Source: Hyphomicrobiales bacterium
Lineage (GTDB): Bacteria; Pseudomonadota; Alphaproteobacteria; Rhizobiales; Beijerinckiaceae
Reading direction: 5' to 3'
NCBI GenBank assembly: GCA_900470775.1
Contig: UCBZ01000034.1
Coordinates: 1 to 64,000 of the forward strand
Length of the DNA: 64,000 nucleotides
Positions 4,170 through 52,021 of the stretch are shown piece after piece (positions within the stretch are counted from its first letter, which is position 1; the number at the start of each line of letters is the position of its first letter). The notes under the pieces are model-generated. The model was not told the DNA's origin, did no database searches, and saw only the letters and a program-made list of their open reading frames with translations. The position numbers and the translations under genes are program-made.

Positions 4170-4637
4170 GTGGCGAAGCTCAATGTGAACGGCAAGATGC
4201 TCGACGTCGAGGCGGCCGGCGATACGCCGCTGCTCTGGGTCATTCGCGAACAGATCGGCCTGACCGGCACGAAATATGGTTGCGGCGTCGCGCAATGCGG
4301 CGCCTGTACCGTCCATATCGACGGCGTGGCAACGCGCTCCTGCTCGCTGCCGCTCGATGCGGTGACGGCCGAGCAGAAGATCGTCACCATCGAGGGGCTC
4401 TCGCCCGACGGCAAGCATCCGGTCCAGCAGGCCTGGATCAAGCATGACGTTCCGCAATGCGGCTTCTGCCAGAGCGGCATGATCATGGCGACCGCAGCCC
4501 TGCTGCAGGCTAACCCGAAGGCGACCGAAGCCGACATTGCCGCCGAGATCACCAATATCTGCCGTTGCGGCACCTATGCGCGGGTCAAGACCGCGATCCT
4601 TGACGTCGTCGCCGGCGGAACGCTCGGCCGCGGCTGA
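4170..4637 (+). CDS. (2Fe-2S)-binding small subunit of a molybdenum hydroxylase (isoquinoline 1-oxidoreductase alpha-like)
   Basis: A 155-residue electron-transfer subunit carrying two [2Fe-2S] clusters. The plant-type ferredoxin site is CGVAQCGAC (Cys38, 43, 46) with Cys58. The C-terminal alpha-helical site is CGFCQSG (Cys97, 100) with CRC (Cys131, 133). I chose GTG 4170 because GGGAGG lies six bases upstream. An ATG in frame at 4125 would add 15 unconserved residues and lacks such a site. With the next gene it forms the two-subunit periplasmic type of xanthine-dehydrogenase-family enzyme (IorAB-like), which passes electrons to a cytochrome instead of having its own FAD subunit. Confidence 0.92.
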
Positions 4638-4737
4638 AGGCTCGCCTGTTTTGCAATTCCCCAGCGCGGGGTCGAACGCGGCAGGTCTTCAAGCACCGCC
4701 GCATCCCTCGCGTCCAAGCCCAGATCCGGAGGACGAC

Positions 4738-6939
4738 ATGACATCCGCCTCGACCGCCTCTTCCAAAACCAGTCTGTCCCGCCGCGGCCTGCTCGCAGGC
4801 TCGGCCGCCGCAGCCGGCGCCTTCAGCTTCGGCTTCACGATCCCCTTCGGCAGCGAAGCTCAGGCCCAGGCGCAAGGCGCCGTCCCCGAGATCAACGCCT
4901 GGGTCGTGATCCATCCCGACGACAAGGTGGTGATCCGCATCGCCCGCTCCGAGATGGGGCAGGGCACGCTGACCGGCCTCGCCCAGCTCGTCGCCGAGGA
5001 GCTGAACTGCGACTGGTCGAAGGTCACGACCGAATACCCGACGCCGGGCCAGAGCGTCGCGCGCAACCGCGTCTGGGGCAATTTCTCGACCGGCGGCAGC
5101 CGCGGCATCCGCGAGTCGCATGAATACGTTCGTAAGGGCGGCGCGGCGGCGCGGATGATGCTGATCCAGGCTGCCGCGAATGAATGGAAGGTGCCTGCCG
5201 CCGAATGCGCGGCCGACAAGAGCGTGATCACGCACAAGGCCTCGGGCCGCTCGCTGCGCTATGGCCAGGTCGCGGCCGCCGCCGCCAAGATCGAGGCGCC
5301 CAAGGATGTCCCGCTCAAGGATCCGAAGGACTGGATCATTGCCGGCAAGCCGCTGCCGCGCCTGGACACGGCCGACAAGACCAACGGCAGCAAGATTTAC
5401 GGCATGGACCTGAAGATGCCGGGCATGCTCAACGCCGCGATCAAGGACTGTCCGGTCTTCGGTGGCAAGGTGAAGAGCTTCGACGCCGCCGCGATCAAGG
5501 CCATGCCGGGCGTCAAGCATGTGCTGCCGGTCGGTGACAGCGCCGTCACCGTCGTCGCCGACACCTGGTGGCAGGCCAAGACGGCGCTCGATGCGCTGCC
5601 GATCGTCTGGGACGAGGGCGAGCATGCCAAGGTGTCCAGCGAAAGCCTGGCAGCCTGGCTTAAGGAAGGGCTCGACGCCCCGAACGCCGTCGTCGGCAAC
5701 CAGAATGGCGACGTCAAGGCGGCGATCGCCGGTGCTGCCCGCACCATCGAGGCCGTCTACTCCTATCCGTTCCAGAACCATGCCTGCATGGAGACGATGA
5801 ACGCGACGGCGCTCTACACGCCGGAGAAATGTGAGGTCTGGACGCCGACGCAGAACGGCGAGGCGGCGCTTGCCGCCGCAGCCGAGGCGTCGGGCCTGCC
5901 GATCGCCAAATGCGAGGCTTACAAGATCGACCTCGGCGGCGGCTTCGGCCGGCGCGGCGCGGTGCACGACTGGGTCCGCCAGGTCGTCGTTATCGCCAAG
6001 CAGATTCCCGGCACACCGGTGAAGCTGATCTGGTCGCGCGAGGAGGACATGCTGCATGGCCGCTTCCACCCGCTGACGCAGTGCAAGCTGACCGGCGCCC
6101 TCGACAAGGATGGCAACCTGACCGGGCTGCACATGCGCATCTCCGGCCAGTCGATCGTCGCGGGCATCTTCCCGCAGAACATCCAGAACGGGCGCGATCC
6201 GGTGGTCTTCCAGGGCCTCAACCCGCCGGGACCGGAAGCCTCGATCGGCTATTCGGTGCCCAACCTGCTGATCGACCACGCCATGCGCAATCCGCATGTG
6301 CCGCCCGGCTTCTGGCGCGGGGTCAACCTGAACCAGAACGCGATCTATCTCGAATCCTTCATGGACGAACTGGCGCATGCCGCGGGCAAGGACCCGCTGG
6401 AGTTCCGCCGTGCCCTGATGAAGAACCATCCCAAGCATCTCGCCGTGCTCAATGCCGCGGCCGAGAAGGCGGAATGGGGCAAGCCGCTGCCGGCCGGCGT
6501 CTTCCGCGGCATCTGCCAGACCATGGGGTTCGGCTCCTATGTCGCGGCCGTCGCCGAGGTCTCGGTCAGCGCTGACGGCAAGCTCAAGATTCACCGTATC
6601 GTTGCCGCGACCGACCCCGGCCATGCGGTCAACCCGGCGCAGATCGCGCGCCAGGTCGAGGGCTCTTTCGTCTACGGCCTGTCGGCTTCGCTTTATGGCG
6701 AGATCACCATCAAGGACGGCCGTGTCGAGCAGGAGAATTTCGACACCTATGAGGTCATGCGGCTGGAGGCGATGCCGGCGGTCGAGACGGTCCTGGTGCC
6801 GTCGGGCGGCTTCTGGGGCGGTGTCGGCGAGCCGACGATCGCGGTCGCGGCGCCGGCCGTGCTGAACGCGATCTTCGCCGCGACCGGCAAGCGCATCCGC
6901 AACCTGCCGATCAAGAACGCCGATCTCAAGAAGGCGTGA
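4738..6939 (+). CDS. molybdopterin-binding large subunit of a molybdenum hydroxylase (isoquinoline 1-oxidoreductase beta-like), Tat-exported
   Basis: A 733-residue catalytic subunit of the xanthine dehydrogenase/aldehyde oxidoreductase superfamily. The N-terminus has a twin-arginine signal (SRRGLLAGS, residues 14-22, then a hydrophobic stretch to the AQAQAQ region), which places the enzyme in the periplasm. Molybdopterin-site signatures visible include SEMGQGTLTGLAQLVAEEL, GGGFGRRG, PPGFWRGVN and GGFWGGVGEPTI near the C-terminus, where the catalytic Glu is expected. ATG 4738 follows a GGAGGACGAC ribosome-binding site. Such enzymes hydroxylate N-heterocycles or aldehydes, and the substrate here is unknown. 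The stop codon overlaps the start of a SoxX-like cytochrome gene, which makes a c-type cytochrome a plausible electron acceptor (inference). Confidence 0.92.
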   Translation: MTSASTASSKTSLSRRGLLAGSAAAAGAFSFGFTIPFGSEAQAQAQGAVPEINAWVVIHPDDKVVIRIARSEMGQGTLTGLAQLVAEELNCDWSKVTTEYPTPGQSVARNRVWGNFSTGGSRGIRESHEYVRKGGAAARMMLIQAAANEWKVPAAECAADKSVITHKASGRSLRYGQVAAAAAKIEAPKDVPLKDPKDWIIAGKPLPRLDTADKTNGSKIYGMDLKMPGMLNAAIKDCPVFGGKVKSFDAAAIKAMPGVKHVLPVGDSAVTVVADTWWQAKTALDALPIVWDEGEHAKVSSESLAAWLKEGLDAPNAVVGNQNGDVKAAIAGAARTIEAVYSYPFQNHACMETMNATALYTPEKCEVWTPTQNGEAALAAAAEASGLPIAKCEAYKIDLGGGFGRRGAVHDWVRQVVVIAKQIPGTPVKLIWSREEDMLHGRFHPLTQCKLTGALDKDGNLTGLHMRISGQSIVAGIFPQNIQNGRDPVVFQGLNPPGPEASIGYSVPNLLIDHAMRNPHVPPGFWRGVNLNQNAIYLESFMDELAHAAGKDPLEFRRALMKNHPKHLAVLNAAAEKAEWGKPLPAGVFRGICQTMGFGSYVAAVAEVSVSADGKLKIHRIVAATDPGHAVNPAQIARQVEGSFVYGLSASLYGEITIKDGRVEQENFDTYEVMRLEAMPAVETVLVPSGGFWGGVGEPTIAVAAPAVLNAIFAATGKRIRNLPIKNADLKKA

Positions 6940-7391
6940 GAGCGACGGCCGGAGTGATGTTGCGTCTGGCGCTCGCCGGGGCCGTGCTGGCATCCGGCGG
7001 CGCCTCGGCGCTCGAATCCTACACGGTCGTTGGCGACGCCATTCCGCGTCCCCTCGGCGGGCTTGCCGGCAACTCGGCGCGGGGCGCGGCGCTGGTGCGC
7101 GATCGCGAGCGCGGCAACTGCCTGATCTGCCATCAGGGCACGGACGCCTCCGAGCCCTTTCAGGGCACGATCGGGCCGCCGCTCGCTGGCGTCGGGGCTC
7201 GTCTCGATGCGGGCCAGATCCGCTTACGGCTGGTCGATGCCTCCGTGCTCAACCCGCAAACGGTGATGCCGCCCTATTTCCGGACGGAAAACCTGCATGA
7301 TGTCGCCCCAACCTATCGGGGCAAGCCGGCCCTCTCGGCCCAGGAGATCGAGGATGTCGTCAGTTATCTCGCCTCGCTCAAGACGTTCTGA
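6936..7391 (+). CDS. soxX: sulfur oxidation c-type cytochrome SoxX
   Basis: A small (151-residue) secreted monoheme cytochrome c. The heme site is CLICH (Cys62, Cys65, His66) and the sixth-ligand motif MPPYF is at 111-115, both typical of SoxX. SoxX pairs with diheme SoxA to form the SoxAX heme enzyme that attaches thiosulfate sulfur to the carrier SoxYZ in the periplasm. The GTG at 6936 overlaps the TGA of the molybdenum hydroxylase gene (GTGA). ATG 6957 (Met8) is an alternative start giving a cleaner signal peptide. The overlap ties expression of this cytochrome to the molybdenum enzyme. The 3' end overlaps the start of soxY by 38 bases. Confidence 0.9.
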   Translation: MRATAGVMLRLALAGAVLASGGASALESYTVVGDAIPRPLGGLAGNSARGAALVRDRERGNCLICHQGTDASEPFQGTIGPPLAGVGARLDAGQIRLRLVDASVLNPQTVMPPYFRTENLHDVAPTYRGKPALSAQEIEDVVSYLASLKTF

Positions 7392-7848
7392 AGCCGGCCC
7401 TGACCGCCGCAGCGTCCTCGCCGGCGCAGCGGCAGGCCTGCTGGTCGCGACCTTGCCTGCGCGCGCGGCCACCGACATCTCGCCCGAGCGCGCGCAGCTG
7501 ATCGCGCGCATCACCGAGGGCGCACTGCCGGAGCGCGGCCGCATCACGCTCGACATCCCCGCTTTGGTCGAGAACGGCAATTCGGTCGACACCCGCATTC
7601 TCGTCGAGAGCGCGATGACCGAGGCCGATCATGTCCGCTGGATCCATCTGATCGCCGAGAAGAACCCGTTTCCGGACATGGCGCGGTTCCATCTCGGCCC
7701 CCGCGCTGGCCGCGCCGAAGTCGCGACCACCTTGCGGCTGTCGCAGTCGCAGACGGTCACGGCGGTCGCGGCGCTGAGCGGCGGCGGCTTCGTCATGGCC
7801 GATGCCGACATCGTCGTGACGCTGAGCGCCTGCATCGACGGCGGCTGA
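7354..7848 (+). CDS. soxY: thiosulfate oxidation carrier protein SoxY with variant C-terminal tail
   Basis: A 164-residue SoxY-type carrier. Start ATG 7354 has AGGAGA six bases upstream and lies inside the 3' end of soxX. The N-terminus has a twin-arginine signal (DRRSVLAG, residues 18-24, with a hydrophobic segment ending at PARA), matching the known Tat export of SoxYZ. In SoxY the sulfur substrate is carried on the Cys of a C-terminal GGCGG-type arm. Here the protein ends SACIDGG, so a Cys is present (Cys160) but the Gly-Gly before it is replaced and two extra residues follow. The tail may still carry sulfur, but it is not the standard swinging arm. Confidence 0.88.
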   Translation: MSSVISPRSRRSEAGPDRRSVLAGAAAGLLVATLPARAATDISPERAQLIARITEGALPERGRITLDIPALVENGNSVDTRILVESAMTEADHVRWIHLIAEKNPFPDMARFHLGPRAGRAEVATTLRLSQSQTVTAVAALSGGGFVMADADIVVTLSACIDGG

Positions 7849-7858
7849 GGAGAGCCCG

Positions 7859-8182
7859 ATGAGCTTCAACGCCCGCATCACCCTGCCGGCCCAGGCCCGC
7901 GTCGGCGAGATCGTCGAGATCAAGGTGTTGACCCGCCACCCGATGGATCGCGGCGGCCAGTCCGACGGCAAGGGCGGCACCGTGCCGCGCATGATCCTCA
8001 ACCGTCTGACCGCGACCTATGCCGGCGAGCCGATATTTCGTCTCGACATGCACACCGGGGTCTCCGCCAACCCCTTCGTCTCCTTCACGACGCGGGCGGT
8101 TGCGACCGGCGACATCGTCTTCGAATGGCGCGAGGACGGCGGCGCGACCTACACTCGGACTGCAAGGCTGACCGTGACGTGA
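7859..8182 (+). CDS. soxZ: thiosulfate oxidation carrier complex protein SoxZ
   Basis: A 107-residue immunoglobulin-like protein with no signal peptide, as usual for SoxZ, which leaves the cell folded together with Tat-exported SoxY. Family features include the start MSFNARITLPAQARVGEIVEI, the HPMDRG segment and the C-terminal strand pattern FVSFTTRAVATGDIVFEW. It starts ten bases after the soxY stop with a GAGGAG ribosome-binding site. It should form the heterodimeric sulfur carrier with the upstream SoxY. Confidence 0.92.
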   Translation: MSFNARITLPAQARVGEIVEIKVLTRHPMDRGGQSDGKGGTVPRMILNRLTATYAGEPIFRLDMHTGVSANPFVSFTTRAVATGDIVFEWREDGGATYTRTARLTVT

Positions 8183-8211
8183 GGCCGATGGAGCTTCCGG
8201 TTCTAATCGTG

Positions 8212-8327
8212 CGCGAGTCATCCCGGGCGACCAATGGGAGACCCGGAATCTATGCCGGAACGCCTACCCGGAAAGGTCCCGGAATGGATCCCGGATTTCC
8301 GCTTCGCTACGTCCGGGATGACTCGCG
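8212..8327. repeat. dispersed palindromic repeat at the 5' end of soxA
   Basis: A perfect 15-base inverted repeat, CGCGAGTCATCCCGG (8212-8226) and its reverse complement (8313-8327), encloses further GC-rich stems containing ATGGATCCCGG. It has the composition of the dispersed rhizobial palindromes (GTCATCCCGG...CCGGGATGAC) and resembles the element at 9127-9228. It sits where the soxA signal peptide should begin, so part of it is probably translated. Confidence 0.75.
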
Positions 8328-9096
8328 TGTTTGTGGAGCAATCGGGTTTGCCCTTGCGCTGGCATGCTTCGTCCTCCAGCCCAGCCCCGCCTTCGCCGAC
8401 ATCAAGTCGGGTACCGAATTCCTCTCCCCCGACATGCGCCGCCAGCAGGCCGACGAGACCCGCAACCCGGCCTTCTTCTGGGTCGAGCAAGGTCGCGAGT
8501 TGTTCAGCCGGAAGCCGACGCCGGATGGGCAGGCCTGCGCCTCCTGCCATGCCGAGCCGCAGCAGAGTCTGCGCGGCGCCGCGACGCATTATCCGCAGGT
8601 CGATGCAGCCAGCGGCAAGCTGCTCAACCTCGAAGGCCGGATCGAGCAATGCCGCGTCGAGCGGCAGGGACAGCCGGCCTTCGGCTATGAAAGTCCCGAG
8701 CTTCTGGCGATGACGGCCTATCTCGGCTCGCTTTCACGCGGGCTGCCGATGGATGTGAAGACCGATGGCGCGGCAAAACCCTATTACGAGGCGGGCAGGG
8801 CCTTCTTCGAGCGCAGGCAGGGCCAGCTCAACCTGTCCTGCCAGCAATGCCATGACGGCCTCGTCGGCCAGAAGCTGCGCGGCGACACGATCAGCCATAG
8901 CGCCGGCACCGGCTACCCCGCCTATCGGCTCGAATGGAACGATGTCGGCTCGCTGCACCGACGCTTGCGCGCCTGCTCGCTCGGCGTCCGCGCGACGCAG
9001 TTCGATTACGGCTCGCCGGAATATCTCGCGCTGGAGCTTTTTCTCGCCGGGCGGGCGAGAGGGCTGCCGGTGGAGACGCCGGGAATCCGGCGTTAA
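8284..9096 (+). CDS. soxA: diheme c-type cytochrome SoxA
   Basis: From ATG 8284 the product has 270 residues with a hydrophobic signal segment ending near SPAFA. Heme sites are CASCH (Cys85, Cys88, His89) and CQQCH (Cys186, Cys189, His190). Cys231 in RRLRACSLG matches the conserved active-site cysteine that becomes a heme-ligating persulfide in SoxA. SoxA with SoxX forms the enzyme that links thiosulfate to SoxY. The start is uncertain: the frame stays open upstream, with ATG 8188 after a TGAGG box, and a dispersed palindromic repeat (8212-8327) lies in between, so the first residues of either version derive from repeat DNA. It is the last gene of the plus-strand operon, and soxB, soxCD and soxR are not in the window. 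Confidence 0.9.
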   Translation: MDPGFPLRYVRDDSRVCGAIGFALALACFVLQPSPAFADIKSGTEFLSPDMRRQQADETRNPAFFWVEQGRELFSRKPTPDGQACASCHAEPQQSLRGAATHYPQVDAASGKLLNLEGRIEQCRVERQGQPAFGYESPELLAMTAYLGSLSRGLPMDVKTDGAAKPYYEAGRAFFERRQGQLNLSCQQCHDGLVGQKLRGDTISHSAGTGYPAYRLEWNDVGSLHRRLRACSLGVRATQFDYGSPEYLALELFLAGRARGLPVETPGIRR

Positions 9097-9126
9097 CTCA
9101 AGCCCGTCTTGGTTCGGAAACACCGC

Positions 9127-9228
9127 GTCATCCTGGACAAGCGGCGCAGCCGTGCAGCTCCGGGATCCATCGGAGGGCTCAACGCTCTACGATGGATCCC
9201 GGGACGACCTTCGGTCGCCCAGGATGAC
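9127..9228. repeat. palindromic repeat between convergent soxA and cytochrome c genes
   Basis: The outer arms GTCATCCTGG (9127-9136) and CCAGGATGAC (9219-9228), and the perfect inner arms CGGGATCCATCG (9161-9172) and CGATGGATCCCG (9190-9201), form a long stem. It is of the same kind as the element at 8212-8327. It lies between two converging genes, where it can act as a bidirectional terminator. Confidence 0.7.
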
Positions 9229-9247
9229 GGTGCGTATCCTGCTGTCC

Positions 9248-9640
9248 TCAGAGCTTCTTACCGTCCTTGTCGAACTGCTTGAGATAGGCGGTGAGGTCCT
9301 TGACCTCCTGCTCGTTCTTGATGCCGGCGAAGATCATCTTGGTGCCGGGCATCTTGGCCTTCGGGTCCTTGATGTAGTCGGCGAAGACCGCGTCGTCCCA
9401 GGTCAGGCCGGCCGCCTTGTTGGCGGGCGAGTAGCTGTAACCCTCGATCGAGCCGGACTGGCGGCCGAACAATCCGTTCAGCATCGGGCCGATCGTGTTC
9501 TTCGCGGTTTCGCCGAGCTGATGGCAGGCGCGGCACTTGTTGAAGGACCGCTCGCCGGCGGCAACGTCCTGAGCATGGGCGGAGGTTCCAAGCAGCAGGG
9601 CTGCGGCAAGGATCGAGGCGCTGGCAAGTATTGCTTTCAT
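9248..9640 (-). CDS. small soluble class I cytochrome c (c2/c550-like)
   Basis: A 130-residue periplasmic electron carrier. A cleavable signal peptide (residues 1-23, ending SAHA) precedes the heme site CRACH (Cys36, Cys39, His40). The axial methionine is probably Met102 in GTKMIFAG, in the usual class I cytochrome c2 setting (NTIGPML, GYSYSPAN and GLTWDD are family blocks). It follows fccB by about 36 bases on the same strand and is probably the electron acceptor for the flavocytochrome, and possibly for SoxAX, passing electrons to a terminal oxidase (inference). Confidence 0.92.
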   Translation of the reverse strand: MKAILASASILAAALLLGTSAHAQDVAAGERSFNKCRACHQLGETAKNTIGPMLNGLFGRQSGSIEGYSYSPANKAAGLTWDDAVFADYIKDPKAKMPGTKMIFAGIKNEQEVKDLTAYLKQFDKDGKKL

Positions 9641-9676
9641 GGTCTTTCCTTCGTCGGTCAGGAGGTTTTGCGCCCG

Positions 9677-10954
9677 TCAGGTGAACATGTCGGCGCAGAT
9701 GGCGTCGTACCAGGCGATGTTCTCGGCCTGGGTCTGCCTGCGAATCTCGGCGCTTTCGCCCGGCTGCGAGATGAAGGTCTCGACCGCGGCAATGCGGCCG
9801 TCCTTCGGCTCGTAGCGGCCGCCGACCTTGATCGCGTCGTCGGTGTCGACCAGGCTCCAGCAGGTGTTGAGATAGCGCGCCGGGAAGGTCTGGGCGCCGA
9901 CGAGCTCCCCGCGCAGGACCATCGCCGCGACCTTGGCCTGGTTGTTGGCGGAGAAGGCCGATTTCGGCATGTCCCCGGCATTGCAGGCATCGCCGAGCAC
10001 GACGATGTCGCCGTCGACCACGGACTTCATGGTCGCCGGGTCGATGGCGCAGTATCCCCCGGCCGGGGCGAGGCCCGCATCGCGCGCGATCGCACCGGCC
10101 ATCTGCGCCGGGATCACGTTGACGAAGGCGCAGTTTTCATAGGTCTCGAAGCCGGTGACGACGGTGCCTGTCCTCGGATCGACTGATGTGATGCCGTCAT
10201 GCACCTTAGGGCCGAGCCATTCGATCATGGCGCTATAGCGCTTCTCCCAGTCGGGCATGAACACGCCTTGCTTGGAGAAGCTTTCCTTGGGATCGAGGAT
10301 GACGATGCGGGCCTTGTTGCGGCCGCTCTGCTGCAGCACATGCGCGAACATCGAGGCGCGCTCATAGGGGCCGGGCGGGCAGCGATAGGGATTGGGCGGG
10401 GCGATCATCACGATCGTGCCGCCATCGGGCACGGCGTCGAGCTTCTCGCGGATCAACTGCGTCTGCCGGCCGGGCTTCCAGCCATGCGGCATCGCCTCCT
10501 CGGCCTCTTTCGACCAGCCGGGCACGGAATCATAGTTCAGGTCGATGCCCGGCGAGAGCACGAGCCGGTCGTAAGGCAGGCGCCGGCCATCGCTCAGCAC
10601 GACCTCCTTGCGGTCGCGGTCGATCTGCGTGGCGCGGCTGCGGACGAGCGCGATGCCATGGGTCGAGGCGAGAGCGTCGTAGCGATGGACGATCTCCTCA
10701 TAGCGCTTGAAGCCGCCGATGAAGAGATTGGAGTGGAAGCAGGTCTGGTAGGTCTCGTTCTCCTCGACCAGCGTCACCGCAATCGCGCCGGCACTGTCCT
10801 TCGCGAGATACTTGGCCGCCGTCGCACCCCCCGGCCCGCCGCCGACGACCACGACGCGCGGTTTCGCCTGTCCGAGGACGGCGGGCGCAGCCAGCGTTCC
10901 CGCCGCGAGCACGGCACTGGTGCCTGCCATCCAATCGCGTCGCGTCGGTTTCAT
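9677..10954 (-). CDS. fccB: flavocytochrome c sulfide dehydrogenase, flavoprotein subunit (FccB/SoxF-like)
   Basis: A 425-residue FAD enzyme with a twin-arginine signal (RRDWMAGTS) followed by the FAD-binding VVVVGGGPGGATAAKYL. Two conserved cysteines, in YQTCFHS and YRCPPGPYER, fit the redox-active pair of sulfide dehydrogenases of the FccB/SQR family. It should oxidise sulfide in the periplasm and hand electrons to the cytochrome subunit encoded just upstream. ATG 10954 is preferred because GGAGGA lies eight bases before it. A GTG at 10969 is the other possible start. It lies in a minus-strand operon with fccA and a soluble cytochrome c. Confidence 0.9.
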   Translation of the reverse strand: MKPTRRDWMAGTSAVLAAGTLAAPAVLGQAKPRVVVVGGGPGGATAAKYLAKDSAGAIAVTLVEENETYQTCFHSNLFIGGFKRYEEIVHRYDALASTHGIALVRSRATQIDRDRKEVVLSDGRRLPYDRLVLSPGIDLNYDSVPGWSKEAEEAMPHGWKPGRQTQLIREKLDAVPDGGTIVMIAPPNPYRCPPGPYERASMFAHVLQQSGRNKARIVILDPKESFSKQGVFMPDWEKRYSAMIEWLGPKVHDGITSVDPRTGTVVTGFETYENCAFVNVIPAQMAGAIARDAGLAPAGGYCAIDPATMKSVVDGDIVVLGDACNAGDMPKSAFSANNQAKVAAMVLRGELVGAQTFPARYLNTCWSLVDTDDAIKVGGRYEPKDGRIAAVETFISQPGESAEIRRQTQAENIAWYDAICADMFT

Positions 10955-10973
10955 CGGCCTGTCCTCCACGCGT

Positions 10974-11345
10974 TCACGGCTTCGCCACCAGAGCGCCGAA
11001 ATAGGCGGCGAGCGCAGTCATCTCGTCGCGGCTCAGCCTTGCGGCGATGGTCTGCATCGTTGGGTTGTCGCGCTGCTTGCGGCCATAGGCGTCGAGCGCG
11101 GCAACGAACTGCTCCTCCGGCCAGCCGATGATCGGCGGGATGCCGCCGCTGCCGCGGCCGGAGAGCTGGTGGCAGCCGGTGCATTCGGCGGCGAGATATT
11201 CGGCCAGCGCCCGGTCCCCGGCGGCCTCGCCAGGCGCGGTGGCAAGCAGAAAAGCCGCGACGCCCGTCAGGGCAAACCCTGCGGGACGTCGCGCATGCCG
11301 CCATCTCGTCCTGTGCCTGCCCAACCCGGGCTCTCCCATCGTCAT
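10974..11345 (-). CDS. fccA: flavocytochrome c sulfide dehydrogenase, cytochrome subunit (FccA-like)
   Basis: A 123-residue monoheme cytochrome c with an N-terminal signal or anchor segment (FALTGVAAFLLATAPGEA), heme site CTGCH (Cys55, Cys58, His59) and a likely axial Met97 in NPTMQTIA. It matches the cytochrome subunit that binds FccB: short, with the IPPIIGW and MTALAAYFG blocks. The frame is open further upstream to 11393, but ATG 11345 or 11339 gives a sensible signal peptide. It is the first gene of the fccA-fccB-cytochrome c unit. Confidence 0.85.
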   Translation of the reverse strand: MTMGEPGLGRHRTRWRHARRPAGFALTGVAAFLLATAPGEAAGDRALAEYLAAECTGCHQLSGRGSGGIPPIIGWPEEQFVAALDAYGRKQRDNPTMQTIAARLSRDEMTALAAYFGALVAKP

Positions 11346-11542
11346 CGTCCACCTGTCGCCCGGCCTCCGCTGCGCAAAGCAGCAGAGTGGCAAGGCGGGA
11401 TGATGGAGCCGGACTCCTTTTTGGAAGAGTTCTCAGGTTCCGTCTTTCACGATCCTGTCAGAGGTTCGCGAGCAAGGGCGGCCGCCGCAGATCCAGTCAG
11501 CCCTGCGCTGGTCGGGAGGCACGCGGGAATGTTTGAGAGTGG

Positions 11543-11884: not shown

Positions 11885-12874
11885 TCAGAAACGCCAATTG
11901 GCGGGCACCCAGGCGTAGCCGTGGTCGATCTTCAGCATGCGGCCGAGACCCGGAAACGGATAGTGGAAGCCCAAGACCAGCATCTGCTCGGCTGCCGCCC
12001 GGTCGAAGATGCGCCGACGGATCTGCAGCGCGGCCTCCTGATCGCGGTCCGGGCCGGGTCGCCATGGCCGATCAATGTTGACGACCGGATGGTAGGCGAG
12101 GTCGGTTGTCAGCAGCAGCTGCTCGTCGCCCGAATGGACCAGGAAAGCGACCATGCCGGGGGTATGGCCCGCAGCCGCGATGGCTGTCAGGCCGGGCAGG
12201 ATCTCCCCGCCAGGCTCATAGAGCTCGATCTCCCTGGCGATCGGCTCGACGCTGCGCTTGATGGCCGCGCCGAAAAAACGACGCCGAAAATCCTCCGGCA
12301 CGGGCATGTAGGACAGGTCGGGGTCGCCGCTGACGAAGAAATCCCAGTCCGCCTTCGGAGCGAACACCTGCGCACGCGGAAACGCCTTGCCACCATCGGC
12401 CGTTCGCAGGTTGCCGACATGGTCCGGGTGGGTGTGAGAGATGACGATGGCGTCGATATCGTTGGCGCTCAGGCCGATCGTCGCGAGATTGGCGAAGACC
12501 CTGCCGGCATTCGGTCCCATCGTGTCGCCGGCGCCTGCTTCCAGCAGAACCCGCCTGCCGCCTGCTTCAAGCAGGAGCGTGTTGAGGTTCAGGGTCAGAT
12601 GATCGGTTGGCAGGAAGGCGCGTCGCAGCGCCGTCTGGAGTTCGACTTCAGGGGCATCGCCTGCATAAATCCGGGGCGGCCCTCCGATGACCCCGTCGCT
12701 GAGTACTGCCGCGCGAATGTCGCCGATGCGGAACTGATAGACGCCGGCATTGCCTGGGGGACGCACGACCGGCTGGTCAACGGCTCTGCCTGTGCCGAAG
12801 GCTGGCGCGAGGCCGGCTCCCGCCGTTGCAGCAGACAGCATGATCGTACGGCGGTTGATGGTCAGGCGGCTCAT
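11885..12874 (-). CDS. MBL-fold metallo-hydrolase with Tat-like signal
   Basis: A 329-residue metallo-beta-lactamase-fold hydrolase. The zinc motif HTHPDH is at 147-152, preceded by the strand DAIVISH, with later metal His/Asp candidates in AAGHTPGM and TTDLAYHP. The N-terminus INRRTIMLSAATAGAGLAPAFG looks like a twin-arginine signal, so the enzyme is probably periplasmic. The overall pattern (LEAGAGDTMGPNAG before the metal motif) is that of the lactonase/methyl-parathion-hydrolase-like branch. Divergent from a LysR gene 108 bases away, which is the likely regulator. Confidence 0.88.
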   Translation of the reverse strand: MSRLTINRRTIMLSAATAGAGLAPAFGTGRAVDQPVVRPPGNAGVYQFRIGDIRAAVLSDGVIGGPPRIYAGDAPEVELQTALRRAFLPTDHLTLNLNTLLLEAGGRRVLLEAGAGDTMGPNAGRVFANLATIGLSANDIDAIVISHTHPDHVGNLRTADGGKAFPRAQVFAPKADWDFFVSGDPDLSYMPVPEDFRRRFFGAAIKRSVEPIAREIELYEPGGEILPGLTAIAAAGHTPGMVAFLVHSGDEQLLLTTDLAYHPVVNIDRPWRPGPDRDQEAALQIRRRIFDRAAAEQMLVLGFHYPFPGLGRMLKIDHGYAWVPANWRF

Positions 12875-50393: not shown

Positions 50394-51839
50394 CTAATTC
50401 TTGGATAAGGTAGCGTCGCCGTTCCCGTCGATAGCTGGCGTCTCTGCATTCCCTTTATGGGTCGCTCCCAGGAGCGCATCGACTGGATCGCCGCCGCGGA
50501 AACCGGCTTGCGCCAGGATCTCGTCGATGATCGGCTTCTGCGCGCCGAAGCTGAGCAACTGGCTGCTGAGATCGGAGATCGGGCTCTGGCCGCCTTGCCC
50601 GGCCGAGCCGCTGCTCATCGCGCCGAGCAGGTTGCCGGCGCTGAAGATCCTGATGTCCGAGATCTTCTCGATCGGCTTCATCGCCTGCTCGAGTGCCTCG
50701 GGGATGATCGCGATGCGCTGCTTCGTCAGTTCGAAATCGACCATCTGCGGCGACAGCGCGTTGCGGGCCTCGTTCAGTGCGCGTTCGCGCTTCGCCTCGG
50801 CCTCGCCGAGTTCGATGATGCCGCCAGCCTTGATCTTGTTGGCGTCCGCCTCGGCGGTCGCCTGCGTGAGCAGCGCCTGGGCGAGGTTGTCGGCGGCTTC
50901 TCGCTCGGCCTGGGCGTTCACCGTGACGCGGGTGGCGTCGCGCTCGGCCTCACGGCGGGCGTCGATCACCGCGAAAACCGCATAGCTCATCCCATCGGGA
51001 AGGGTAACGCCGCCCCAGAGATAGGCCAGGTCCATCGCGCTTTGCAGCACAAAGAGCAGGTTGAACACGATCAGCGAGCGCAGGATCGCCGCGTCAGACA
51101 GAAATGTCGCGCGCAGTCGGCCCAGGGCATCGGCGGGGGCGAGAACGACCGGCGCCGTTTTGGCGACGCGTCGGCGCCGGGTGACATAAAGCAGCGGCGC
51201 GGTCAGCATGATGATGCCGAGCCAAAGCCCGATCCGGCTCGCGCTGACGCCGTGCAGGAGCGTGGCCGGATCGACTGTCGCGAGCCAGCGGTCGACCAGC
51301 GGGTTGGCCGCAGAGAACAGCATCACGAAGACGCCGCCGAGCAGTAGCGGGACGGTCCAAGCGCCAAGGCCGACCAGTGATACGACCGAGCGGCTGCTCT
51401 GCGGCAAGATGCGAACGCCGCGCCGGGCTGTGCGCACCGCGCGCCACGGCCCTACGAGATAGAGATCGACGACGGCCAACATCCTGTCGGTCAGCGATCC
51501 GGCCCAGCGTCCCTCTGCCATCAGCACGAAAGCGCCGAGGCCGGCCGCTGCAAAGGCGAGCGACAAGACATTGACCGCCTCAGCCAGTGGAACCAGCGTT
51601 ATGAACAGCAGGAGCGCGGCCCTGAGAATGTCGCGACGGTGTGTCGTCCGTGCACTGGCGATCCTGGCCGCGACACCGGTGGCGAGTGCGAACATCACGG
51701 CCGAGATGCCCATGCGATGTGCGTGGAAGAACCAATCGGCCAGGATGACGAGAACGACGCTCGCCACGGCAACGCGCAGGAAGCGACTCGGGTGGGAAGT
51801 GCGCGCAGGCTGTGCGGCGGCGAGGCTGGTCATGGGCAT
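50394..51839 (-). CDS. chimeric membrane protein: DUF4173 N-terminal half fused to flotillin (YqiK-like) C-terminal part
   Basis: A 481-residue open frame made of two unrelated halves. Residues 1 to about 287 are membrane segments of the DUF4173 family, with the family block YLWGGVTLPDGMSYA where such proteins normally continue for another 150-200 residues. From about residue 288 the sequence is that of a flotillin/SPFH protein tail: DARREAERDATRVTVNAQAER, AEAKRERALNEARN and KPIEKISDIRIF, a coiled-coil rich region. The joint lies at bases 50967-50981. An in-frame deletion between two neighbouring genes on the same strand would produce this. It may be expressed as a membrane-anchored flotillin tail, or be a decaying fusion. 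ATG 51839 (or 51833) is the likely start. Confidence 0.75.
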   Translation of the reverse strand: MPMTSLAAAQPARTSHPSRFLRVAVASVVLVILADWFFHAHRMGISAVMFALATGVAARIASARTTHRRDILRAALLLFITLVPLAEAVNVLSLAFAAAGLGAFVLMAEGRWAGSLTDRMLAVVDLYLVGPWRAVRTARRGVRILPQSSRSVVSLVGLGAWTVPLLLGGVFVMLFSAANPLVDRWLATVDPATLLHGVSASRIGLWLGIIMLTAPLLYVTRRRRVAKTAPVVLAPADALGRLRATFLSDAAILRSLIVFNLLFVLQSAMDLAYLWGGVTLPDGMSYAVFAVIDARREAERDATRVTVNAQAEREAADNLAQALLTQATAEADANKIKAGGIIELGEAEAKRERALNEARNALSPQMVDFELTKQRIAIIPEALEQAMKPIEKISDIRIFSAGNLLGAMSSGSAGQGGQSPISDLSSQLLSFGAQKPIIDEILAQAGFRGGDPVDALLGATHKGNAETPAIDGNGDATLSKN

Positions 51840-52021
51840 CGGGCCTTGCTGAAGGAGAAGGTGAAGGCGGGTCGATCGGCCGCCACAGGCAAACTGCCTG
51901 GCAGTCGGGTGGTGGGCTCGCTCGCCGCGGCGGGAGAGAGAACGAGCCACCAGCCATCCTTGACGAGGCTGTCGGGCAGAAGGGGTCGGCTGGTACGGGG
52001 CGGCTTGTTCGGCTGTGTCAT
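51830..52021 (-). CDS. small hypothetical protein overlapping the chimeric gene
   Basis: A 63-residue frame whose stop overlaps the start of the chimeric membrane-protein gene, the arrangement of coupled genes. I recognise no family. It has a Pro-rich start and a central KDGWWLVLSP. An AGG box precedes ATG 52021. It may be a small partner of the DUF4173 gene or chance. Confidence 0.25.
   Translation of the reverse strand: MTQPNKPPRTSRPLLPDSLVKDGWWLVLSPAAASEPTTRLPGSLPVAADRPAFTFSFSKARCP

Follow-up and report, generated by a model that had tools for sequence, protein, structure and literature searches.

Can the sulfur carrier of the Sox system serve a substrate other than thiosulfate? This question is raised by positions 4170-9096 of a 64,000-nucleotide stretch of Hyphomicrobiales DNA (contig UCBZ01000034.1, hereafter the window), in which the genes for the small (MoS) and large (MoL) subunits of a molybdenum (Mo) hydroxylase, together MoSL, are followed on the forward strand by soxX, soxY, soxZ and soxA. 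The consensus, as outlined in the part of PMC5336275 drawn on here, is a model in which thiosulfate is first attached to SoxYZ by SoxXA and its sulfonate is then cleaved off by SoxB, with direct demonstration of single steps lacking. An initial annotation of this DNA had recognised the six genes, all of which we find at the place it gave, and had suggested that SoxYZ might carry a product other than thiosulfate. Here, we found that the block MoS-MoL-(cytochrome c, FCSD)-SoxX-SoxY*-SoxZ-SoxA, in which FCSD is a SoxF-like sulfide dehydrogenase flavoprotein and SoxY* a SoxY with a different carrier arm, recurs in genomes with and without SoxB. Judged by sequence comparison, this module is a real and widely conserved Sox variant. 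As neither SoxB nor SoxC passes its cut-off in the window's genome, the gene order is conserved and the arm differs, the suggested use of the carrier for another product is the most economical reading, to be held at the strength discussed below.

Results

Conservation of the module across genomes

We searched 397 genomes sampled from the order for TIGR04487 (the NCBIfam family 'SoxY-related AACIE arm protein'), SoxB and MoL, and scanned the contigs of 84,980 species with a SoxY alignment, keeping the best 80 of 584 relatives, a choice that favours close relatives. TIGR04487 was matched above cut-off in 25 of the 397 genomes, and 41 of them carry the module (the window's own, 31 with fetched loci, eight with adjacent MoL and SoxY coordinates, and G391). 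The 80 relatives kept, among which the SoxY of Bosea sp. OK403 is 92% identical to that of the window, whose source is thus probably a Bosea, come mostly from Bosea, Methylobacterium, Bradyrhizobium and other Alphaproteobacteria, with some Betaproteobacteria and three Candidatus Rokuibacteriota metagenome-assembled genomes (MAGs). Across both sets, MoL lies at most 6.5 kb upstream of SoxY on the same strand at 105 loci with 97 distinct SoxY, the other eight being second copies of the same locus; an arrangement found with 97 distinct SoxY is not due to chance. The order of genes noted in the window is thus widely conserved and mostly identical: 50 loci read MoS-MoL-FCSD-SoxX-Y-Z-A, 31 are identical with no FCSD in reach, nine have FCSD reversed downstream as in the window, four have it after SoxA, five have no SoxA that we could find, and six are laid out otherwise, some being cut by contig ends. 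SoxZ is present at 104 of the 105 loci, the exception (L133) being a contig end, and where an ACxE-type SoxY arm comes with no full MoL (12 loci), the upstream sequence available is always shorter than 2.9 kb.

Is there a further gene that travels with the module? In a clustered census of open reading frames of at least 80 amino acids at 93 loci and the window, the largest cluster beyond the module comprised 24 loci, at scattered places and in either orientation; the second largest, of 22 loci, is antisense to soxY. Where SoxA is missing from the block in Methylobacterium (five species), each species has one SoxA on another contig; four of the five were searched for SoxB, none having it, and the fifth (L113) fell outside that search. 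In five Methylobacterium (L184-L188), the detached soxA stands directly upstream of genes for the alpha, beta and accessory proteins of a nitrile hydratase, which as a clue is confined to one lineage and absent from the other loci in hand, and was not used. The module is also carried by a MAG contig labelled Klebsiella pneumoniae (L147), a label that is probably a binning or naming error.

A distinct carrier arm and distinct Sox clades

The window SoxY finds its best NCBIfam match in TIGR04487, which it covers over the whole profile with 159.4 bits against a cut-off of 172 that relatives of the same layout pass; the true SoxY family TIGR04488 gives 84 bits against 125, and Pfam SoxY is passed. 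Its carrier arm reads SACIDGG (Cys codon at 7831-7833), an AACx[ED]-type arm that replaces GGCGG. This is a general property of the module: an arm of the form [AGSP]-A-C-x-[DE] was found in 109 of 109 SoxY with any MoL match nearby, a set admitted with a looser coverage filter than the 105 loci, and GGCGG in none of them. The control comparison consists of eight GGCGG loci, all eight without MoL within their 20 kb. Trees separate module from control sequences perfectly for SoxX (104 and 6 sequences), SoxY (105 and 8) and SoxZ (104 and 8), with support of 0.998-0.999, and with two mismatches for SoxA (98 and 8), which we take to be distant cytochromes at L070 and L071. The functional residues are kept, with the CxxCH heme Cys and His and one Met in 106 of 106 SoxX, and the hemes and distal Cys in 101-102 of 102 SoxA (the Cys at reference position 230 in all 102).

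The module in the presence and absence of SoxB

The initial annotation had allowed that SoxB may exist elsewhere in the genome. This genome (5.55 Mb in 96 contigs, completeness rated 100%) contains no SoxB match above the curated cut-off, the best scoring 128.7 bits against 550, and matches below the cut-off are found in 11 of 14 control genomes as well. Neither was a SoxC found above cut-off (best 175.9 bits against 420; SoxD was not searched for), and the 4170-9096 locus accounts for the single SoxZ, the single TIGR04487 match and the single SoxA of the whole genome. This genome thus has no SoxB or SoxC above cut-off elsewhere, and the arrangement is not unique to it.

Within the order sample, SoxB above cut-off is present in 30 of 41 module genomes and in 104 of 356 others (Fisher p 7e-8, no phylogenetic correction), so that the module is commoner in SoxB genomes, as would be expected of a part in sulfur metabolism. 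That 11 module genomes of the sample, one of them (G375) 88% complete, are SoxB-less suggests that the module does not depend on SoxB. A similar picture comes from genomes reached from named records, 20 of 37 being SoxB-less in a set that has no completeness rating, includes some drafts and shares at least five genomes with the order sample. SoxC above cut-off occurs in two of the 11 SoxB-less genomes (G315 and G375), and alongside the module in 6 of 15 module genomes tested.

The locus in the window

The genes of the block, its companions and one neighbour are as follows; Tat-type N-termini were recognised by eye.

4170-4637, forward strand: MoS, [2Fe-2S] small subunit of the Mo hydroxylase (GTG start; Fer2_2, 95 bits)
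4738-6939, forward strand: MoL, Mo-cofactor large subunit (MoCoBD_1 and MoCoBD_2 matches; Tat-type N-terminus)
6936-7391, alternative start 6957, forward strand: soxX, monoheme cytochrome c (TIGR04485, 79 bits, cut-off 61)
7354-7848, start chosen in a frame that opens at 7297, forward strand: soxY variant with a Tat-type N-terminus (TIGR04487, 159 bits)
7859-8182, forward strand: soxZ (PF08770, 80.5 bits against a cut-off of 25; TIGR04490, 74 against 76)
8284-9096, start chosen, forward strand: soxA, diheme cytochrome with a conserved Cys ligand (TIGR04484, 215 bits, cut-off 110)
9248-9640, reverse strand: companion, c550-type (cycA-like) cytochrome (NF043008, 191 bits, below the cut-off of 240)
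9677-10969, reverse strand: companion, FCSD flavoprotein, SoxF-like sulfide dehydrogenase (FCSD_central and FCSD-flav_bind)
10974-11393, reverse strand: companion, small SoxE-like cytochrome c adjoining FCSD (Cytochrom_C, 28 bits)
11885-12874, reverse strand: metallo-beta-lactamase-fold protein with a Tat-like N-terminus (nearest to AidB lactonases, 124 bits against a cut-off of 360)

Among solved structures, the soxA product matches 1h31_A (E 3e-51) and the FCSD product 5n1t_A (E 9e-102). The set MoS-MoL-soxXYZA had been given correctly and without the divergent cytochrome and FCSD genes at 9248-11393, which the comparison of loci makes likely members of the system. It had also been described as running without a break from MoL into soxX. 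The GTGA overlap of these two genes is indeed present in the DNA, but hinges on the choice of the soxX start, since an ATG at 6957 is an alternative and yields, by eye, a more typical-looking signal peptide; elsewhere, gaps of 100 bp between MoS and MoL and of about 100 bp between soxZ and soxA leave the block imperfectly tight. A scan of the operon for promoters and terminators gave no signal above chance. Palindromic intergenic repeats lie at 8205-8335, where the probable soxA start falls inside the repeat, and at 9116-9239; the former, in the soxZ-soxA gap, is dispersed, with 62 matches in the genome (both strands counted, hence fewer places). Far from the locus, a single open frame on the reverse strand (50394-51950) combines part of a DUF4153 membrane region with the C-terminal domain of a flotillin, as either a deletion fusion or an assembly join.

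FCSD and its cytochromes

Of the 105 module loci, 72 have an FCSD no more than 7 kb away, and at 59 of these 72 it sits between MoL and soxX, so that these two genes are often not adjacent. The two Cys of its redox pair are conserved in 74 of 74 sequences. Several module loci have a small cytochrome c ahead of FCSD, and a c550-type cytochrome stands beside FCSD at L074, L094, L096, L097 and L098. Bosea and its close relatives are informative, as the window FCSD has one match and no more (E at most 1e-60) in each of 18 genomes. In all ten that bear SoxB, this FCSD lies within 5 kb of SoxB and in none of them beside the module; in seven of the eight without SoxB, the window's genome included, it lies beside the module (p 0.0003, no phylogenetic correction), the exception being B. 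caraganae, where FCSD is elsewhere with its cytochromes (L189). FCSD is thus kept when the canonical operon is absent, and from this distribution probably belongs to the module system.

The Mo hydroxylase

The large subunit carries the features of the xanthine oxidase family, namely MoCoBD domains and a [2Fe-2S] partner subunit, in which eight Cys are kept in 103 of 103 module MoS. The GxGE motif, whose Glu is the catalytic residue of this family, reads SGGFWGGVGEPT in the window and stands in all the variants listed, which cover 97 of 103 linked MoL. The label 'IorAB-like' given initially is loose, the nearest solved relative of MoL being the large subunit of an aldehyde dehydrogenase (8gy3_C, E 6e-73, residues 7-732).

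Is this enzyme bound to its Sox neighbours? Close MoL relatives without Sox genes imply that MoSL can work alone, the Sox genes being a partner that is conserved yet can be parted from it. The active-site motifs appear similar in linked and in close unlinked MoL, and no MoL position was conserved in the linked enzymes (at least 95%) and not in six close unlinked ones (at most 25%). No shared neighbour that would name a substrate was found around the unlinked relatives among the contexts listed. Four loci with such relatives (L158, L159, L161 and L162) offer a possible route to the substrate.

Discussion

A possible role for the carrier

What might SoxYZ* (SoxY* with SoxZ) carry? Because SoxB-less module genomes are without a known sulfonate hydrolase and a carboxylate stands two residues past the carrier Cys, the cargo is most likely not thiosulfate; an acidic residue at that place would disfavour an anionic cargo. 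An organosulfur compound is our first choice. We tentatively propose, giving it rather less than an even chance, a parallel Sox system in which SoxXA would load a sulfur compound other than thiosulfate on SoxYZ*, MoSL would oxidise it and FCSD would clear the carrier. All parts of the module would act in the periplasm. There, SoxXA may join a substrate that bears a thiol or a sulfane to the cysteine of SoxY* in a two-electron oxidation, the aldehyde-dehydrogenase-like MoSL could oxidise the bound or released organic part of the substrate using water, and FCSD with its small cytochrome would strip or oxidise the remaining sulfane sulfur and so recycle SoxYZ*, the electrons passing presumably to cytochromes c. 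We speculate further, with more doubt, that SoxYZ* bears the organic sulfur as a mixed disulfide and that oxidation by the Mo hydroxylase takes place on the carrier, at the carbon adjacent to the sulfur. If true, this would be a carrier-bound organosulfur route of aerobic bacteria in which the C-S bond is split and the sulfane sulfur passes to FCSD, linking organic and inorganic sulfur oxidation.

Several points weigh against this proposal. Its evidence consists of sequence, and none of the neighbouring genes points to a substrate. SoxY served to pick the loci, so that its presence is given by construction, and at 33 of the 105 no FCSD is in reach. MoL relatives as close as 58-66% identity stand in varied contexts with no Sox genes at the locus and are nested among the linked MoL. 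The mirror-tree correlation between MoL and the Sox genes (0.55-0.68) is lower than that among the Sox genes (0.80-0.92), values that retain species history. The association statistics are uncorrected for phylogeny, and many strains carry both systems. Finally, a lead towards methanethiol did not hold and was not used. SBP56 (PF05694) occurs in 13 of 41 module genomes and in 6 of 39 others. In four genomes, all of the Bradyrhizobium-type family, about 5-18 kb separate it from the module SoxY, and this is the one family in which it was seen beside the module; the one such SBP56 scanned scored 99 bits against a methanethiol-oxidase cut-off of 650. In two genomes of a Bradyrhizobium-type genus (L172 and L173), the module adjoins genes for an SBP56-family protein, a DUF4399 protein, an amidohydrolase and a second Mo hydroxylase.

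Other explanations

How else could the module be explained? It may handle inorganic sulfur, with sulfide, polysulfide or a sulfane donor loaded on SoxYZ* by FCSD and SoxXA, MoSL in place of SoxCD, which is also a Mo enzyme, and sulfite leaving without SoxB. The FCSD companion at 72 of 105 loci, the intact SoxXA and the lack of SoxC above cut-off in 9 of 11 SoxB-less module genomes of the order sample are consistent with this; we nevertheless regard it as unlikely, as MoL belongs to the xanthine/aldehyde oxidase family, with an aldehyde dehydrogenase as its nearest relative, SoxC above cut-off coexists with the module in 6 of the 15 genomes tested, and we know of no member of that family that oxidises sulfur. 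Xanthine oxidase-type Mo enzymes need a sulfido ligand, and SoxYZ*, loaded by SoxXA and FCSD, could serve the upkeep of MoL by giving it sulfane sulfur to restore this ligand in the periplasm. The occurrence of close MoL relatives without nearby Sox genes makes this quite improbable, as does the unlinked MoL of G188, a genome with no TIGR04487 match, and of G238, which has a weak one only (E 6e-10), even though MoL is linked at every ACxE-type locus with enough upstream sequence, SoxB is absent, a sulfide-oxidising flavoprotein would be at hand as the sulfur source, and no Mo-maturation gene was recognised among the conserved neighbours, whose clusters are partly named.

The initial annotation had also considered that the Sox cytochromes accept electrons from the hydroxylase. 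Taken as the whole explanation, with SoxX and SoxA as cytochrome partners of MoSL and SoxYZ* a passenger, this has in our view a small chance. Relatives of 8gy3 work with a cytochrome c subunit, whereas MoSL has no such subunit fused to it and is directly followed by soxX in the window; a passenger would, however, hardly be expected to keep SoxZ at 104 of 105 loci, the arm Cys and the following acidic residue in 109 of 109 SoxY and the distal Cys in 102 of 102 SoxA. The presence of SoxY itself does not count here, since the loci were picked by it. The module could alternatively oxidise thiosulfate with a surrogate of SoxB, such as the metallo-beta-lactamase-fold protein at 11885-12874 acting like SoxH. 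Its Tat-like N-terminus would suit such a task, relatives 30-33% identical stand at four of eight canonical sox control loci (L065, L068, L070 and L071), and SoxH is reported, in a passage of PMC11237559 that cites another work, to substitute for SoxB in a Sulfurimonas strain. The protein is closest to AidB lactonases (124 bits against 360), similar proteins occur at 2 of 80 loci only (L100 and L108), and the carrier arm is not GGCGG. We thus rejected this protein as a stand-in for SoxB, it not being conserved with the module, and see little prospect for a surrogate in general. The Bradyrhizobium diazoefficiens genes point the same way: of its two soxY genes, soxY1 alone is essential for thiosulfate oxidation according to the part of PMC5748708 cited here, and soxY2, reported there as non-essential, may be of the ACxE type, a tentative assignment suggested by a genome of a Bradyrhizobium-type genus (G253) that has both an ACxE-type and a GGCGG-type SoxY (L043, L072).

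Significance

Genome surveys can take soxXYZA as thiosulfate-oxidising capacity, which is probably inapplicable to the module operon, and 41 of the 397 sampled genomes of the order, 11 of them SoxB-less, have this Sox-like operon with its own carrier type. If the carrier serves another substrate, the swinging-arm principle of Sox would reach beyond thiosulfate, with a concrete partner enzyme. The genome paper of Bosea sp. WAO, in the part cited, describes the canonical operon alone (PMC5894208); this strain also carries the module (L095). A 2024 SoxY survey ties divergent SoxY to organosulfur and alcohol metabolism and, in the section cited here, applies a filter that dropped sequences without a GGC motif (PMC11237559), so that an ACxE-type arm would be excluded.

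Comparison with known systems

The SoxY type has already been named by NCBIfam. No published description of an MoSL-Sox operon was found in the titles and abstract openings searched, most subscription journals lying outside their scope. Which known systems does the module resemble? Like the canonical Sox system of the Paracoccus type (SoxXA, SoxYZ, SoxB and SoxCD), it has homologues of SoxX, SoxA, SoxY and SoxZ with intact hemes, SoxA Cys and carrier Cys, and FCSD/SoxEF-like companions; unlike it, it has the arm SACIDGG instead of GGCGG, SoxX, SoxY and SoxZ clades of its own, a linked Mo hydroxylase, and, in the window's genome, neither SoxB nor SoxC above cut-off (SoxD lying outside the search). 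TIGR04487 is the best family for the window SoxY and agrees in the arm motif, but this SoxY falls just below its cut-off, and the family names a single protein, with no description of an operon or function that we noticed.

The 8gy3 aldehyde dehydrogenase and IorAB-type enzymes share the [2Fe-2S] and Mo-cofactor subunits with the window, MoL being aligned over its full length, and differ from it in that the window block sits in a Sox operon; no gene for a multiheme cytochrome subunit, a feature of the 8gy3 type, was recognised in the block by family scans. A last parallel comes from the quinoprotein-associated fused SoxYZ-like carrier (TIGR04557) and the SoxYZ-S2/S4 types (PMC11237559, in the part cited). 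These are fused SoxYZ found with pyrroloquinoline quinone (PQQ)-type or methanol/formate dehydrogenases, whereas the window has separate genes (SoxY and SoxZ reach 49.8 and 40.1 bits against the TIGR04557 cut-off of 140), SoxXA and a Mo enzyme. Like the module, they pair a SoxYZ-type carrier with an oxidising enzyme, there one that acts on alcohols or aldehydes.

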